From: Blastochloris viridis
GTDB lineage: Bacteria; Pseudomonadota; Alphaproteobacteria; Rhizobiales; Xanthobacteraceae
Assembly (NCBI RefSeq): GCF_001402875.1
Contig: NZ_CP012946.1
Span: forward strand, 474,001 to 538,000
Length of the DNA: 64,000 nt
Direction: 5' to 3'
In this document: piece after piece, positions 55,141 to 63,838 of the stretch
Layout: each line of letters begins with the position of its first letter
Position numbering within the stretch: the stretch's first letter is position 1
Program-made: the position numbers and the translations under genes
The notes under the pieces: generated by a model
Database searches by the model: none
Seen by the model: the letters and a program-made list of their open reading frames with translations, nothing else
What the model was told of the DNA's origin: nothing

Positions 55141-56016
55141 TCACTGCCCCGGCATCTGCCCCGGCGTCTTGTGGCAGATGACGCAGTTGACGCCGTCACG
55201 GATGCCGACCGGGTGCTTCTTGGTCGGATCGGGCGATTGGCCGGGCCGGATCGGCTGGTCGGTGACGCCCTTGTGGCAGGTCAGGCACGCCGCCGAGTCG
55301 GTCACCGCCGGGTGCGGCGTCTTGGGGGGGGCCTGGGTGGTCGCAGGCGTCGGCGCCGGCAGGGCGGTGGCGGCCTGCTGGGTCGGCGGTGTCGGCTGTG
55401 CCTGCGGCGGTTGAGCCGGGGTCGCGGCCGGGGCGGCGGCCGTCGGGATCGCCGCCACCTTCTTGGCGTCCGGCAGCTTGTGGGCGATGCCCTTGTGGCA
55501 GTCGATGCAGGTCGAGCCGGCCTTGAGCGCCGCCGGGTGCACCTCGCGCGCCACCGGGTTCTGGCGGGCACGATCCATTGCCTCGACGGTGTGGCAATGG
55601 CGGCACTCGGCCGAATCGTTGGTCTTCATCTCCGCCCACACCCGGGCGGCGAGCTCGGCGCGGTGCGCCTCGAACTTCTCGGGCGTGTCGATGGTGCCGA
55701 GCGCCCAATGATAGATCTCGTTGATCGAGCCGATCTTGTGCAGCATCTTGGCCGGCCAGGCCCGCGGCACGTGGCAGTCGGCGCAGGTCGCCCGCACCCC
55801 GAACGCATTGGCGTAGTGGACGGTGGTCTGGTACTCCGGCAGCACCGAGTGGCGCATCTCGTGGCAGGAGCTGCAGAACTCCAGCGTGTTGGTGGACTCC
55901 ACCACCTTGTCGACGGTGAGCAGCGCCACGGCGCCGAGCGCGGCGCCGCCGGCCAGCCACCCAGCCGCGAATTTGAACCGCGGGTTGCGAATTGTCTTCA
56001 AAATGGCGTCCAACAT
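55141..56016 (-). CDS. NapC/NirT-like cytochrome c with six haem motifs
   Basis: 291 aa. An N-terminal anchor helix (FAAGWLAGGAALGAVALLTV) and four CxxCH motifs (48-52, 78-82, 138-142, 170-174) form a NapC/NirT quinol-dehydrogenase core (LEFCSSCHEM, VRATCADCHVP, HKGIAHKLP). A Pro/Ala/Gln/Thr-rich linker (about 188-235) then leads to two more haem sites, CLTCH (244-248) and CVICH (278-282). NapC has four haems and TorC-type proteins five, so six is unusual. The terminal reductase it feeds is not in the window. Its promoter region carries an IS insertion. Confidence 0.9.
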   Translation of the reverse strand: MLDAILKTIRNPRFKFAAGWLAGGAALGAVALLTVDKVVESTNTLEFCSSCHEMRHSVLPEYQTTVHYANAFGVRATCADCHVPRAWPAKMLHKIGSINEIYHWALGTIDTPEKFEAHRAELAARVWAEMKTNDSAECRHCHTVEAMDRARQNPVAREVHPAALKAGSTCIDCHKGIAHKLPDAKKVAAIPTAAAPAATPAQPPQAQPTPPTQQAATALPAPTPATTQAPPKTPHPAVTDSAACLTCHKGVTDQPIRPGQSPDPTKKHPVGIRDGVNCVICHKTPGQMPGQ

Positions 56017-56164
56017 CGGCCATCTCCGTTGTTCGTGGCAGAGGACGATCGCGGGGGAAGCGTACTGCCGGTTTCGAAATGGGCTGGAACGAGCGAATGC
56101 GAAATCCGTAAAGCCCCTGTCCGACGGCCGCGGGCGCGGCCGTGGCGGGCGGGCGAGGCCGCTC

Positions 56165-56174: not shown

Positions 56175-57423
56175 CAGGGCAATCGGGTGAAAAATCACGC
56201 TGCCAGGAGACTTGCGAGGAAGTCGTCGTCCCAGGCGGCGACTTTTCGCTTGAGGCGGAGAGAATCCTTGCCCGGGGCCTTGCGGATGAGATTGAGGGCC
56301 ATGTGCTTGAGGGTGGTGAAATTGGCGGGGGCGTGATCGGTGCGGACGCGGCAGTCGTCATCGCGGAACACCATGTCCATGATCCAATGCAGGCTGTTCT
56401 CCACCGCCCAATGGCTGCGGATGACGGGTCCGAGCTGGTCGGCCGGGGACGCCAGCGAGGCGATGTAGAAGCGGGTCTCCTGCTCGCACTTGGCGCCGAT
56501 CTCGCGCATGCTTTCGACCATGACGACACTGGTCAGGCCGGGCCAATCGTGACGGTCTCGGAGCCAAGCCACGTCGTGCATCACCGTGGTGGTGCGGGTC
56601 TCGATGCGGCCGTGATCGCCATCGACGCTGTGATGGCGGCTGATCGCTGTGTCCTTGAAACCATTGGCTTTCTGCTCGGCGGCGAACAGCTCGACGTCCT
56701 CTCGCAAGCTGCCCTGGTTGCCTTTCAGGGCCAGCACATAGTCGGCCTTCTGGGCGAGGATTTGCGCGGCGATGGCGCGCTGGCAGCCCATGGCGTCGAT
56801 GGTGACGATGGCGCCCTCGATCGACAGCAGGGAGAGCAGTTGGGGGATGGCGACGATCTCGTTCGACTTGTCGGCCACCTTGACCTGGCCGAGCACCAGG
56901 CGCTGGCGCGCCGCGAAGGCGGACACCATGTGGACCGCCGCCTTGGCGTCCCTCTTAGCCGAGCGGCGCAGCGTCTTGCCGTCGATGGCGATCACGTCTG
57001 CGGGCGCCCCGGTCACCGCCGCCACCCAGGCGACGAAGCAACGCTGGAACTGCGCAGCATCGAGGGTGGCGAGGATGTCGCCGAGGTGGTCGTGCGAGGG
57101 GGTGCCATGGAGAAACGTGCGGAACCGGCGCAGCAGGTCGAGCTTCGTCTCGCCGAACCTTGCGATGTCGACGAAGGTCTCGGCGCCGGCCAGCACCGCC
57201 AGCAGGCACAGCAGCAGCACCTCCTCCAGCGAGTACATCACCTTGCCGCGCTGGCGCGGGTCGGGCATGTCCTTGAAATAGTCCAGGAAAACAAGAGCTT
57301 CCCCAAGCGCGGCAAAGTCCGGTTCCGCTGGCTCCATCGCCCATCCTCCGCATCCGAATCGGAGGAACCGACAGATTCAGCACTTCAGGCCTTTGTCACC
57401 CCTTTCTTCACCCGATCGCCCTG
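56175..57423. mobile_element. Complete ISAs1-family insertion sequence (1249 bp)
   Basis: Bounded by imperfect terminal inverted repeats: CAGGGCAATCGGGTGAAAAA at 56175-56194 and, inverted, TTTCTTCACCCGATCGCCCTG ending at 57423 (the shared part is about TTCACCCGAT-GCCCTG). It carries one intact transposase gene and is flanked by the perfect 10-bp duplication GACCCGCCAC. Intact ends and duplication point to a recent insertion. It sits between the divergent cytochrome and ppx genes and moves any cytochrome promoter on the ppx side 1.25 kb away. Confidence 0.93.
56195..57337 (-). CDS. ISAs1 family transposase
   Basis: 380 aa DDE enzyme. N-terminal DUF4338-like region (FKDMPDPRQRGKVMYSLEEV), catalytic Asp in DVIAIDGKTLRRSAKRDAKA (first 20 shown), second Asp in GAIVTIDAMGCQRAIA and Glu in HWAVENSLHWIMDMVF. 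Length is normal for ISAs1 and the frame is unbroken, so it is probably active. The stop lies 20 bases inside the left terminal repeat and the start 86 bases inside the right end. Confidence 0.94.
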   Translation of the reverse strand: MEPAEPDFAALGEALVFLDYFKDMPDPRQRGKVMYSLEEVLLLCLLAVLAGAETFVDIARFGETKLDLLRRFRTFLHGTPSHDHLGDILATLDAAQFQRCFVAWVAAVTGAPADVIAIDGKTLRRSAKRDAKAAVHMVSAFAARQRLVLGQVKVADKSNEIVAIPQLLSLLSIEGAIVTIDAMGCQRAIAAQILAQKADYVLALKGNQGSLREDVELFAAEQKANGFKDTAISRHHSVDGDHGRIETRTTTVMHDVAWLRDRHDWPGLTSVVMVESMREIGAKCEQETRFYIASLASPADQLGPVIRSHWAVENSLHWIMDMVFRDDDCRVRTDHAPANFTTLKHMALNLIRKAPGKDSLRLKRKVAAWDDDFLASLLAA

Positions 57424-60190: not shown

Positions 60191-61891
60191 ATGTTGTTGA
60201 CGGAACAGGACAAACAAAAGGCGCTGATTTCCCAGCTGGCCGAGCGGCACGCCCGCAAGCGATCGGCGCTCATCCCCATCCTGCAGACCGTCCAGCGCGA
60301 TTACGGCGAGGTGTCGCAGTTCGCCATGCAGCACATCGCCGACGTGCTCGGCCTGCACGCCGCCGACGTCTATTCGGTCGCCACCTTCTACCAGTTCATC
60401 AACACCGCGCCGAAGGGCAAGTTCATCATCCGGCTCAGCCGCGACATGTCGTCGATGATGAAGGGCGCCAAGACGGTGGCGCGCCAGCTCGAAAACGACC
60501 TCGGCATCAAATTCGGCCAGACCACGCCGGACGGCATGTTCACGCTGGAATGGACCAGCTGCATCGGCATGAACTACCAGGCGCCGGCGATGCTGATCAA
60601 CAACGAGGTGTTCTCCAACCTCACGCCGCAGCGCGCCCACCTCATCATCGAGGATTGTCTGCAGGGCTTCCGCGCCCACCGCCCGACCCTCGGCAAGATC
60701 GGCGAGACCTATTCGTCTGCCTTGACCTATTCGAGCCACGAGGCCGACGCCGGCCTGCGCAATGCCTTGGCGATGAGCCCGGCGGAGGTGGCGGGCGAGG
60801 TGGGTGCCGCCGGCATCCGCGGCCGCGGCGGCGCCGGTTTTCCGACTGGCACCAAATGGAAGCTGGCGGCGGAGGCCAAGGGCGAGTTCAAATACATCGT
60901 CTGCAACGCCGACGAGGGCGAGCCCGGCACCTTCAAGGACCGCATCATCCTGTCGCGCTACGCCGACCTGGTGTTCGAGGGCATGACGATCGCCGCCTAC
61001 GCCGTCGGCGCGCGCGAAGGGCTGATCTATCTGCGGGCTGAATACACCTTCCTTCGCCCGCAGCTGGAGGCGGCGCTGGAGGCGCGGCGCCAGAACGGGC
61101 TGCTCGGCAACGCCATCCTCGGCAGGGAAGGCTTCGATTTCGACATCCGCCTGCACATGGGCGCCGGCGCCTATGTCTGCGGCGAGGAGACCGCGCTGAT
61201 CGAATCGCTGGAGGGCCGCCGCGGCCACCCGCGCAACCGCCCGCCCTACCCGATCGACGTCGGCCTCAACGGCATGCCGACCGTGGTCAACAACGTCGAG
61301 ACGCTGGCGTCGGTGTCCTGCATCCTCGGCCGGGGCGCTGCGTGGTTCTCCTCGATCGGCACCGAGCGCTCCAAGGGCTTCAAGCTGTTCAGCGTGTCGG
61401 GCGACTGCACGCGCCCCGGCGTCTACGAATTTCCGTGGGGCATCACGGTCGAGCAACTTCTGGAGACGGTCGGCGGCGGCAATGCCAAGGCGGTGCAGGT
61501 CGGCGGCTATTCCGGCCAGTTGATCCCGGCCTCGCAGTTCGACCGCCGCCTCGCCTATGAGGATCTCGGCATCGGCGGCTCGGTGATCGTCTACGGCCAG
61601 GACCGCGACATGCTCGACGTCGCCGAGAACTATTTCGAGTTTTTCGTCGACGAATCCTGCGGCCAGTGCACGCCATGCCGCGATGGCAACGTCAAGCTGC
61701 TCGAAGGCATCCGCGCGCTGCGCCAGGGCAAGTGCACCAGCCGCTATCTCAACGAACTGATCAGCCTGTGCGAGACCATCCAGGTCGCCTCCAAATGCGG
61801 CCTCGGCCAGCTTAGCCCCAACATTCTGATCGCCATCAACAGGCACTTCCGGGACGAGATTTTGGCGCGTCCCGTGGTTGGCCAGCACTGA
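60191..61891 (+). CDS. Fused NuoE-NuoF-like flavoprotein subunit of [FeFe] hydrogenase
   Basis: 566 aa. Residues 1-160 are NuoE/HydC-like (thioredoxin-fold end GQTTPDGMFTLE) but the [2Fe-2S] ligand positions read S83, S88, C124 and N128 instead of four Cys, so this cluster is probably absent. Residues about 175-560 are NuoF/HydB-like: FMN/NADH motifs GIRGRGGAGFPTGTKW (209-223), CNADEGEPGTFKD, AYVCGEETALIESLEG and the [4Fe-4S] site C490, C493, C496 (ESCGQCTPCRDG) and C536. No C-terminal ferredoxin extension. It should oxidise or reduce NAD(H) for HydA, encoded 18 bases downstream. Complex I assignment is less likely as no other nuo gene adjoins. Confidence 0.9.
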   Translation: MLLTEQDKQKALISQLAERHARKRSALIPILQTVQRDYGEVSQFAMQHIADVLGLHAADVYSVATFYQFINTAPKGKFIIRLSRDMSSMMKGAKTVARQLENDLGIKFGQTTPDGMFTLEWTSCIGMNYQAPAMLINNEVFSNLTPQRAHLIIEDCLQGFRAHRPTLGKIGETYSSALTYSSHEADAGLRNALAMSPAEVAGEVGAAGIRGRGGAGFPTGTKWKLAAEAKGEFKYIVCNADEGEPGTFKDRIILSRYADLVFEGMTIAAYAVGAREGLIYLRAEYTFLRPQLEAALEARRQNGLLGNAILGREGFDFDIRLHMGAGAYVCGEETALIESLEGRRGHPRNRPPYPIDVGLNGMPTVVNNVETLASVSCILGRGAAWFSSIGTERSKGFKLFSVSGDCTRPGVYEFPWGITVEQLLETVGGGNAKAVQVGGYSGQLIPASQFDRRLAYEDLGIGGSVIVYGQDRDMLDVAENYFEFFVDESCGQCTPCRDGNVKLLEGIRALRQGKCTSRYLNELISLCETIQVASKCGLGQLSPNILIAINRHFRDEILARPVVGQH

Positions 61892-61909
61892 CGCCGGAGG
61901 ATCACGTCC

Positions 61910-63838
61910 ATGGACATCGCAACCACCAGCGCCGCGCCGGCCGCCAGCTCCGCGTCCGCCCCGCACAGCCATTCCCACAGCCATCCCGCGGTCGATCCCA
62001 ACGCCGCGCCGGTGACCGCCACCATCGACGGCGTCGAGGTCACGGTGCCGACCGGCACCACCATCCTCGCCGCCGCCGAGAAGGCCGGCGTCCGCATCCC
62101 GACGCTGTGCCACCATGCCGACCTGTCGCCGGCCGGGGTGTGCCGGGTGTGCGTGGTCGAGGTCGAGGGCTCGCGGGCGCTGCAGGCCTCGTGCGCCTAT
62201 CCCATCACCCACCCGATCAAGGTCAACACCACCACCAAAGCGGTGCGCAAGGCTCGCCGCCACATCATCGATCTGATGCTCGCCAACCACCATGGCGACT
62301 GCTTCACCTGCAAGCGCAACAACAATTGCGAGCTGCAGTCGCTGGCCCAGGAATACGGCGTCGACAGCTTCCGGTTCGGCCGCACCACCCAGCCGAAATA
62401 CGAGATCGACCGCTCCAGCGGCACCATCGTGCGCGACATGAACAAGTGCGTGCTGTGCCGGCGCTGCGTGCGCACCTGCAGCGAGCTGCAGGAGGTCGGC
62501 TGCCTCACCATCGACGGCCGCGGCACGCAGTCGAAGATCTCGACCTTCGCCGACAAGGCGCTGGCATCGGTGATCTGCATCAGCTGCGGCCAGTGCATCA
62601 ACCGCTGCCCGACCGGCGCCTTGAGCGAGGCGGACCAGACCGACGAAGTGTGGACACTGCTCGACGATCCCACCAAGCACGTGGTGATCCAGACCGCGCC
62701 GGCGCCGCGCGCCGCCATCGGCGAGTGCTTCGGGCTCGAGCCCGGCACGCCGGTGACGTTCGAGATGAACTCGGCGCTGCGCCGCATCGGCTTCGACGGT
62801 GTGTTCGACACCAACTTCTCGGCCGACCTCACCATCATCGAGGAGGGCACCGAGCTGATCCTGCGCCTCTACAAGGCGCTGGTGAAGAAGGACCCCTCGG
62901 TCATGCTGCCGATGTTCACCAGCTGCTCGCCGGGCTGGGTGAAATATATCGAGCACTTCAATCCTGACATGCTGGCGCACCTGTCGACGGCAAAAAGCCC
63001 GCAGCAGATGTTCGGCGCCCTGATCAAGACCTACTACGCTCAGAAGAAAGGCATCGATCCCAAGGACCTGGTGGTGGTGTCGCTGATGCCGTGCACCGCC
63101 AAGAAGTTCGAGGCCAACCGGCCGGAGATGGTGTCGAGCGGCTACAGGGACGTCGACTATGCCCTCACCACCCGCGAGCTCGCCAAGATGGTGAAGGAGG
63201 CCGGCATCGACCTGCCCAAGCTGCCGAAGTCGGAGTTCGACCCGCCGTTCGGCAGCGCCACCGGCTCGGGCGTGATCTTCGGCGCCACCGGCGGGGTGAT
63301 GGAGGCGGCGATCCGCACCGTGATCGAGCTGGTCACCGGCAAGACCGTCGAGAACTTCTACGATCATGCCGACATCGTGCCGCTGCGTGGCTTCGAGGGC
63401 GCACGCATGGCCGAACTCACCATCGGCGAGGTCGGCGCGGTGCCGGACATCCTCAAGCACCTGGTGCCGGACTGGAACTGGCTGAAGGGCGCGACGCTCA
63501 AGGTCGGCGTCGCCCACGGCACCGCCAACGCCCGCGAGGTGCTGGAGGACATCAAGGCCGGCGGCCCGTTCAGCCAGTGCCACTTCATCGAGTTCATGGC
63601 CTGCCCGGGCGGATGCCTGGGCGGCGGCGGTCAGCCGATCCCGACCAATGCCGAGGTCCGGGCGGCGCGCGCCAGGGCGATCTACCAGGAAGACAGCGAC
63701 GCACCAGTGCGCAAGTCGCACGAGAACGCCGCCGTGCTGCAGCTCTACAGCGACTTCCTGCTCGGCGGGCCGGGCGGGCACGAGGCGCACCAGCTACTGC
63801 ACACCCACTACACCCCGCGCGGCAAGTTCATCGCGTGA
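61910..63838 (+). CDS. hydA: Multi-cluster [FeFe] hydrogenase catalytic subunit
   Basis: 642 aa, M3-type layout: His-rich head (HSHSHSH, 19-25); [2Fe-2S] C67, C78, C81, C95; His-Cys cluster H127, C131, C134, C140; two [4Fe-4S] CVLCRRCVRTC (180-190) and CISCGQCINRCP (223-234); H-cluster domain with L1 TSCSPGW (337-343), L2 MPCTAKKFE (393-401) and L3 EFMACPGGCLGGGGQP (561-576). L1 has Ser where TSCCPxW has the second Cys. It pairs with the upstream flavoprotein for NAD(P)-linked H2 turnover. Maturation genes hydEFG are not in the window. A strong terminator follows. Confidence 0.93.
   Translation: MDIATTSAAPAASSASAPHSHSHSHPAVDPNAAPVTATIDGVEVTVPTGTTILAAAEKAGVRIPTLCHHADLSPAGVCRVCVVEVEGSRALQASCAYPITHPIKVNTTTKAVRKARRHIIDLMLANHHGDCFTCKRNNNCELQSLAQEYGVDSFRFGRTTQPKYEIDRSSGTIVRDMNKCVLCRRCVRTCSELQEVGCLTIDGRGTQSKISTFADKALASVICISCGQCINRCPTGALSEADQTDEVWTLLDDPTKHVVIQTAPAPRAAIGECFGLEPGTPVTFEMNSALRRIGFDGVFDTNFSADLTIIEEGTELILRLYKALVKKDPSVMLPMFTSCSPGWVKYIEHFNPDMLAHLSTAKSPQQMFGALIKTYYAQKKGIDPKDLVVVSLMPCTAKKFEANRPEMVSSGYRDVDYALTTRELAKMVKEAGIDLPKLPKSEFDPPFGSATGSGVIFGATGGVMEAAIRTVIELVTGKTVENFYDHADIVPLRGFEGARMAELTIGEVGAVPDILKHLVPDWNWLKGATLKVGVAHGTANAREVLEDIKAGGPFSQCHFIEFMACPGGCLGGGGQPIPTNAEVRAARARAIYQEDSDAPVRKSHENAAVLQLYSDFLLGGPGGHEAHQLLHTHYTPRGKFIA

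Follow-up and report, generated by a model that had tools for sequence, protein, structure and literature searches.

A NuoE-NuoF fusion without a full set of NuoE cluster ligands beside an M3-type [FeFe] hydrogenase gene in Blastochloris viridis

The window analysed here is a stretch of 64,000 nucleotides of the Blastochloris viridis genome (contig NZ_CP012946.1, positions 474,001 to 538,000), and that genome is one contig of 3,724,841 bases. At the end of the window, two adjacent genes in the same direction encode a NuoE-NuoF fusion (HydC+HydB, HoxF-like) and HydA, the catalytic subunit of an M3-type [FeFe] hydrogenase. The pair probably represents a two-subunit, cytoplasmic, non-bifurcating [FeFe] hydrogenase of the HydAB type, which is linked to nicotinamide adenine dinucleotide (NAD(H)), has lost the cluster of its NuoE part and is kept by selection. 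Searches of this genome did not find the maturases HydE, HydF and HydG. This result, together with the strong selection on the pair, is what most deserves an experiment.

Both reading frames are open and 18 bp apart, with a GGAGG resembling a ribosome site between them (61896..61900; all features of the pair are on the plus strand). The first gene (60191..61891) encodes 566 amino acids. Three Pfam domains matched within this single open reading frame: 2Fe-2S_thioredx at residues 14-156 (146 bits), Complex1_51K at 205-375 and NADH_4Fe-4S at 476-559. An earlier reading of this DNA from the sequence only had proposed one HydC+HydB protein here, and the domains bear this out. The AlphaFold2 model of the fusion had a mean predicted local distance difference test score (pLDDT) of 89.1 and a predicted template modelling score (pTM) of 0.90. 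The NuoF-like domain (60761..61891; Pfam and alignment) carries the site for NADH and flavin mononucleotide (FMN), with GTFKDR at residues 246-251 and Y328, and GGYSG in its SLBB part at 438-442. Its [4Fe-4S] ligands, Cys 490, 493, 496 and 536, were kept in all 120 homologues listed, which are the best 120 of 8000 scored.

HydA (61910..63838) has 642 amino acids. It matched Fe_hyd_lg_C, Fe_hyd_SSU, Fer2_4 and NADH-G_4Fe-4S_3 in Pfam and passed the cut-off of NCBIfam NF040763, 'NADH-dependent [FeFe] hydrogenase, group A6' (813.2 bits, cut-off 765); the M3 type proposed earlier was confirmed, and A. woodii HydA (7q4v) matched at 600 bits. The Fe-S domains come first, followed by the H-domain and the small-subunit tail. 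The Cys pattern predicts one [2Fe-2S] and three [4Fe-4S] accessory clusters, and the Fe-S and H-cluster Cys were conserved in 119-120 of 120 homologues. Regarding group A6 membership, the H-cluster motifs L1 (TSCSPGW, 62918..62938, the same in 118 of 120 homologues), L2 (MPCTAKKFE, 63086..63112, from the alignment) and L3 (MACPGGCLGGGGQP, 63596..63637, from the alignment) are all intact. The Ser that follows C339 in L1 is a family trait, also seen in A. woodii HydA1.

The NuoE-like domain has a thioredoxin fold and covers residues 1-160 (60191..60670). Pfam, the alignment and a Cys inventory showed that it does not have the [2Fe-2S] ligand set. In place of the HydC/NuoE pattern (C-x4-C, C-x3-C), the homologue alignment gave Ser83 (60437..60439) and Ser88 (60452..60454) at the first and second ligand positions and Asn128 (60572..60574) at the fourth, as had been suspected; Cys124 (60560..60562) is the sole ligand kept. 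The only Cys among residues 1-190 are 124 and 156. Four Cys ligands from elsewhere in the NuoE domain are therefore impossible, and this candidate was ruled out.

The ligand columns of the listed homologues were read from their alignment with the fusion. Four Cys (CCCC) were found in 58 of the 120, and at least two ligands were replaced in the other 62. Most of these had the letters of the fusion, SSCN (42), followed by SACD (9), SSCD (4) and SSGD (2); ACCN, SSCS, ASCN, SSSD and SACS occurred once each. The substitution is far beyond chance, as the set is common to a clade and to several species. A sequencing error or a pseudogene was also considered and rejected, because the ligands were substituted in all three species of the genus and 42 of the 120 listed homologues were exactly SSCN.

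Trees of 79 rows (ligand columns removed) and of 80 rows were built by quick searches; they are unrooted, and their support values come from the Shimodaira-Hasegawa-like approximate likelihood ratio test (SH-aLRT) only. In the window's group, the 33 rows with substitutions fell together on one side of a branch with a support of 100. The rows adjoining this group keep CCCC, and some of those are encoded beside HydA. Twelve otherwise-substituted rows were placed elsewhere in the tree, with a HoxH match in 9 of their 12 loci. The HoxF group comprised 13 rows, including the annotated HoxF of C. necator (letters C, A, C, S), with a support of 98. Two ligand changes occurred in total, one in the window's group and a separate one in the HoxF group. 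In the window's clade the change was probably a loss, since NuoE and HydC in general have four Cys. Most rows of this clade are nameless; its named members are Proteobacteria and include Magnetospirillum fulvum (letters SSCN in P0014), Rhodovastum atsumiense, Thiorhodococcus fuscus, Imhoffiella purpurea, Halorhodospira abdelmalekii and Tolumonas osonensis.

The partnership with HydA was followed across genomes. The fusion adjoins HydA in all three congeners (the window's genome included), and its nearest named homologue belongs to a Blastochloris metagenome-assembled genome (MAG; 92%). A scan of genome contigs gave at least 80 fusion loci. Among the 80 listed, 20 had a HydA match reaching the H-domain, and in 16 HydA started at most 160 bases downstream of the fusion. 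Fifteen of these 16 tight loci were CCCC; in the remaining one (L035) the NuoE residues were not covered. The other HydA-bearing loci had HydA about 1 kb downstream (L070), upstream (L030, L054) or as an upstream piece at the contig end (L019). None of the 80 listed loci had the letters SSCN. Within the substituted clade, 16 fusions could be paired with 16 HydA proteins through a presumed common source genome. In a HydA tree that contrasts the partners of the substituted clade with 11 HydA from the genome loci, the partners of these 16 fusions and two from the genus formed one side of a branch with a support of 100.

The fusion could also belong with the HoxF proteins of NAD-reducing [NiFe] hydrogenases and stand beside HydA by chance. 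Its best solved match by sequence and by fold was the HoxF of H. thermoluteolus (5xfa/5xf9; template modelling (TM) score 0.86-0.87 over 550-556 columns for the full-length model), which is also fused and has the ligand letters V, D, C, S. Moreover, some homologues are labelled HoxF, HoxS or diaphorase in their sources. The fusion shares with HoxF the joined architecture without cluster N1a, but it neither grouped with HoxF nor lies with HoxU, HoxY and HoxH; its neighbour is HydA. The tree splits it from the group of the annotated C. necator HoxF with the HoxH-linked loci, and HydA is its neighbour in every congener and its presumed partner in the 16 pairs. A simple HoxF was rejected on these trees, and a chance neighbourhood is highly improbable.

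Losey et al. 2020 (PMC7311640) set out by which residues bifurcating and non-bifurcating beta subunits can be told apart; here and below, published work is cited from the available parts of each paper. In T. maritima HydB numbering, the non-bifurcating type has Thr or Ser at 232, Lys, Ser or Ala at 234, Tyr at 367 and no GGPSG (PMC7311640). With these positions matched by motif, not by aligning the T. maritima protein, the fusion has T247, K249, Y328 and, in its SLBB part, GGYSG. The first three agreed with the non-bifurcating type in 120 of the 120 listed homologues, and GGPSG was found in none. The aligned bifurcating Nfn-type protein 9bov_B has GAFMDR, GAFVCGEE and GGPSG. Bifurcating HydABC (Bfu) is defined by the clusters B2-B5 of HydB and C1 of HydC (PMC9304861). 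Pfam found no Fe-S domain in the fusion other than the ligand-less NuoE-type one and NADH_4Fe-4S, so that the extra HydB clusters are absent, as the sequence-only reading had said. A bifurcating enzyme was rejected on the missing extra cluster domains together with the non-bifurcating residues. The same residues and the group A6 match support the simplified two-subunit NAD-linked enzyme of that reading as a prediction. The NuoE-like subunit of cyanobacterial Hox, HoxE, has been associated with reactivity towards ferredoxin (PMC11647496), which would fit a ferredoxin-independent enzyme here.

In the proposed HydAB-type enzyme, electrons would pass from the H-cluster through the three [4Fe-4S] clusters and the [2Fe-2S] cluster of HydA to the [4Fe-4S] cluster of the NuoF part, then to FMN and NAD+. 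Judging from known families, the flow between H2 and NAD+ would be reversible and would have no ferredoxin branch. The NuoE part may have kept a structural role once its [2Fe-2S] cluster, which lay off this path, had been lost in a single ancestral event. In this genus, the H-cluster might be made by a route outside the known pathway, or the complex might do other redox work.

Selection on the pair was compared over the three congeners, i.e. three species pairs, with domain values for the two pairs that include the window's genome. The pair was found as one unbroken match in each species, and the aligned stretches contained no stop codon in any of the three (HydA of G001 was covered for residues 20-642). 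At a synonymous divergence (dS) of 0.09-0.32, the ratio of non-synonymous to synonymous divergence (dN/dS) was 0.12-0.15 for the fusion, 0.17-0.26 for HydA and 0.10-0.17 for a second HydA described below. Within HydA, the H-domain was the most constrained part (0.125 and 0.146), compared with the Fe-S part (0.407 and 0.297) and the small-subunit tail (0.292 and 0.356); the 34-residue N-terminal extension showed no constraint, with very few changes. Within the fusion, the values were 0.167 and 0.172 for the NuoF part and 0.089 and 0.069 for the NuoE part, so that the cluster-less domain was the most constrained overall. If the loss of the maturases is older than the genus, this constraint acted in their absence.

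These values bear on whether the pair is the decaying relic of a hydrogenase operon after the loss of its maturases. The maturases were indeed not found, and the pair has a different genomic position in the window's genome and in its congeners. On the other side stand aligned stretches without stops in all three species and dN/dS of 0.12-0.26 at dS of 0.09-0.32, whereby the loss, if shared, predates the genus. Given the dN/dS, decay is quite unlikely.

Searches of the window's complete genome at E 0.001 returned nothing for HydG or HydE, and the best HydF match reached 74 bits, with all matches far under the cut-off of 325.55. Nine genomes were searched at E 1e-20 for HydG and HydE and at 1e-40 for HydF. 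No HydE, HydF or HydG was found in the three congeners, including the window's genome, or in six other alphaproteobacterial genomes with the second HydA type, i.e. in none of the nine genomes that have the second HydA. As a control, 1 of 14 control genomes passed each cut-off, and T. maritima was identified securely in the HydF search. The earlier reading had named the absence of hydEFG as an argument against a working enzyme; with none found, a working hydrogenase is not to be assumed. The HydE profile as such matched 12 of the 14 control genomes, probably via BioB-like relatives, and did not match the window's genome at E 0.001. This silence would presumably fit a biotin requirement.

The cell could have HydE, HydF and HydG that the assemblies lack, for instance on a plasmid. 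Of the three congener assemblies, two consist of a single contig, so a plasmid may have been lost there. The third is a 90-contig draft that is about 100% complete; a plasmid would normally be visible in it, and none of the maturases was found there either. Given this draft, a missing replicon is unlikely.

Elsewhere, maturase records differ. HydG was over the cut-off in 14 of 29 genomes, comprising none of the 9 alphaproteobacterial genomes, 11 of the 16 with a tight fusion-HydA pair and 3 of 4 others. Of the nine genomes with fusion and HydA that were tested, six passed for HydE and seven for HydF. HydE, HydF and HydG are listed for Phaeospirillum and Pararhodospirillum, whose genomes have 'HoxS' and M3 HydA (PMC4967309). 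As the window's own genome is the sole member of the substituted clade in our class and phylum samples, the maturase record of other SSCN-type genomes is taken from that paper. Members of this enzyme family thus appear to differ in whether maturases accompany them.

For this genus and the other Alphaproteobacteria that have HydA and no HydEFG, we tentatively propose a selected [FeFe] hydrogenase without canonical maturation, in which either the [2Fe] subsite would be supplied by another route or a cubane-only H-domain would have been recruited for a different NADH-linked reaction. The complex of the genus might also no longer do any H2 chemistry and, having no more of the H-cluster than its [4Fe-4S] half, act as an NADH-linked electron-transfer or reductase unit. 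HydEFG were not found in any of the three congeners or the six alphaproteobacterial genomes with the second HydA, both genes are under purifying selection, and the large subunit of a [NiFe] hydrogenase is present in all three congeners; all this would suit such a unit. An empty [2Fe] site, in contrast, would not lead one to expect the low dN/dS of the H-domain (0.125 and 0.146) beside 0.41 and 0.30 in the Fe-S part, or intact L1, L2 and L3 motifs in all three species. An odd residue is Ala402 (63113-63115), just after L2, which is Cys in 119 of 120 homologues, the nearest included. On balance, we regard the complete end of H2 chemistry as rather doubtful.

Several points weigh against the reading of the pair as an NAD(H)-linked hydrogenase that has lost its NuoE cluster. 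Without HydEFG, the [2Fe] subsite is impossible by the known pathway, and activity in the organism is therefore doubtful. For R. rubrum, in a like situation, earlier authors concluded from the missing maturases that the enzyme probably is inactive or has another function (PMC4967309); in the open-licence PubMed Central (PMC) papers, as far as their available text goes, this was the only relevant source on Blastochloris hydrogenases or missing maturases. HydG is not constant with tight pairs either: in 5 of the 16 it did not pass the cut-off, with no match in G542 and G546, 171 bits in G543, 174 bits in G544 and a partial match of 207 bits in G551 (mostly MAGs, completeness not given). The unrooted trees do not give the direction of the ligand change. 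The nearest named HydA (92%) is labelled as a Bacteroidales MAG, perhaps by a binning error, and no biochemical work on the substituted clade was found.

[FeFe] hydrogenases are rare in Alphaproteobacteria, as had been stated. Among 385 genomes of the class, 11 passed E 1e-100, and only the window's own exceeded 49% identity. A full-length HydA of any type occurred in 9 of 150 relatives, three of which belong to the window's genus. Transfer had been considered as well; the third-position guanine-cytosine (GC) content of the two genes (0.90 and 0.94) resembles that of other window genes and gives no sign of recent foreign DNA. Searches for FNR-type and sigma-54-type patterns gave matches at chance level only, none of them upstream of the pair.

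The second [FeFe] HydA-like gene (G000:C1:3304646-3306496, equal to L009:646-2496) encodes 616 amino acids, is 44% identical and follows an oxidoreductase gene; in a congener (L165), the gene beside it is GltD-like and carries a C-terminal NuoF stretch. Its H-cluster Cys are kept, its L3 ends in GGGSL, and it occurs in all three congeners and six other alphaproteobacterial genomes. The [NiFe] large subunit lies at G000:C1:2816991-2818577 (minus strand), and the match was over the cut-off.

In the window's genome, the pair is preceded by ppx- and rlmE-like genes and followed by a class A beta-lactamase-like gene (L006). Two congeners (L162, L163) share a different upstream context. Given these differing neighbours, the two-gene unit seems to have moved. 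Further upstream in the window, a DDE transposase with a DDE_Tnp_1_assoc domain was found at 56195-57337 (minus strand). A second copy of it (L010:10567-11709) is identical at 1141 of 1143 bases and is situated about 29 kb away from the second HydA. A NapC/NirT-family cytochrome c gene (55141-56064, minus strand) adjoins the transposase, and the C-terminal part of its product weakly matched further multihaem families.

An active enzyme would be an [FeFe] hydrogenase independent of HydE, HydF and HydG, all of which are held to be required in current accounts of how the H-cluster is assembled. If the enzyme does not act as a hydrogenase, the fold would have found a new use, in a strongly conserved H-domain that has no [2Fe] site. 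The loss of the NuoE cluster throughout the clade, parallel to HoxF, would be a natural experiment on the role of an off-path cluster in NADH-linked enzymes. What is new here, according to the comparisons, is a substitution across a whole clade, placed as one change on the tree, in a family of which some members are linked to HydA, and distinct from the change in HoxF. Such a loss in an [FeFe] enzyme is new relative to the open-licence PMC papers found, as far as these go.

Among known systems, the bifurcating HydABC enzymes (structures from T. maritima, A. woodii and T. kivui) have in common with the pair the HydA subunit (A. woodii 7q4v, 600 bits) and the NuoF core. Their three subunits, extra HydB clusters and A/E-M-F and GGPSG residues are absent here. 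HoxF of the [NiFe] NAD-reducing hydrogenases is the closest solved fold (H. thermoluteolus 5xf9/5xfa), and the HoxF of R. eutropha (C. necator) is likewise an Nqo1/Nqo2 fusion lacking cluster N1a (PMC3189943). Unlike the fusion, HoxF has HoxU, HoxH and the rest with the NiFe site as partners, and it forms a separate branch with the letters C, A, C, S in C. necator. Rhodospirillum rubrum has an alphaproteobacterial HydA gene without maturase genes (PMC4967309) and is likened to B. viridis on that alone, whichever its HydA type. Phaeospirillum molischianum and Pararhodospirillum photometricum are photosynthetic alphaproteobacteria with one NuoE+NuoF protein ('HoxS') and an M3 HydA (PMC4967309, Table 1), and they probably belong to the SSCN clade; unlike in B. 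viridis, HydE, HydF and HydG are listed for them (PMC4967309).

Among the closest described enzymes is HydAB of Syntrophus aciditrophicus, which has been purified; it is a dimeric [FeFe] hydrogenase that depends on NADH and not on ferredoxin, and HydC and HydB are fused in its beta subunit (PMC7311640). A characterised enzyme with the same fusion therefore exists, and the fused two-subunit architecture is already a known kind. The enzyme type given by the sequence-only reading stood, but the novelty of the architecture did not, in view of this enzyme and of HoxF (PMC7311640; PMC3189943). The authors predict two [2Fe-2S] clusters per heterodimer (PMC7311640), so the NuoE cluster is presumably kept there, and the pair of B. 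viridis is set apart by that prediction. Both have two subunits with the NuoE part first in the fusion, and the ferredoxin-free link to NAD that was measured in S. aciditrophicus would apply to B. viridis as well.

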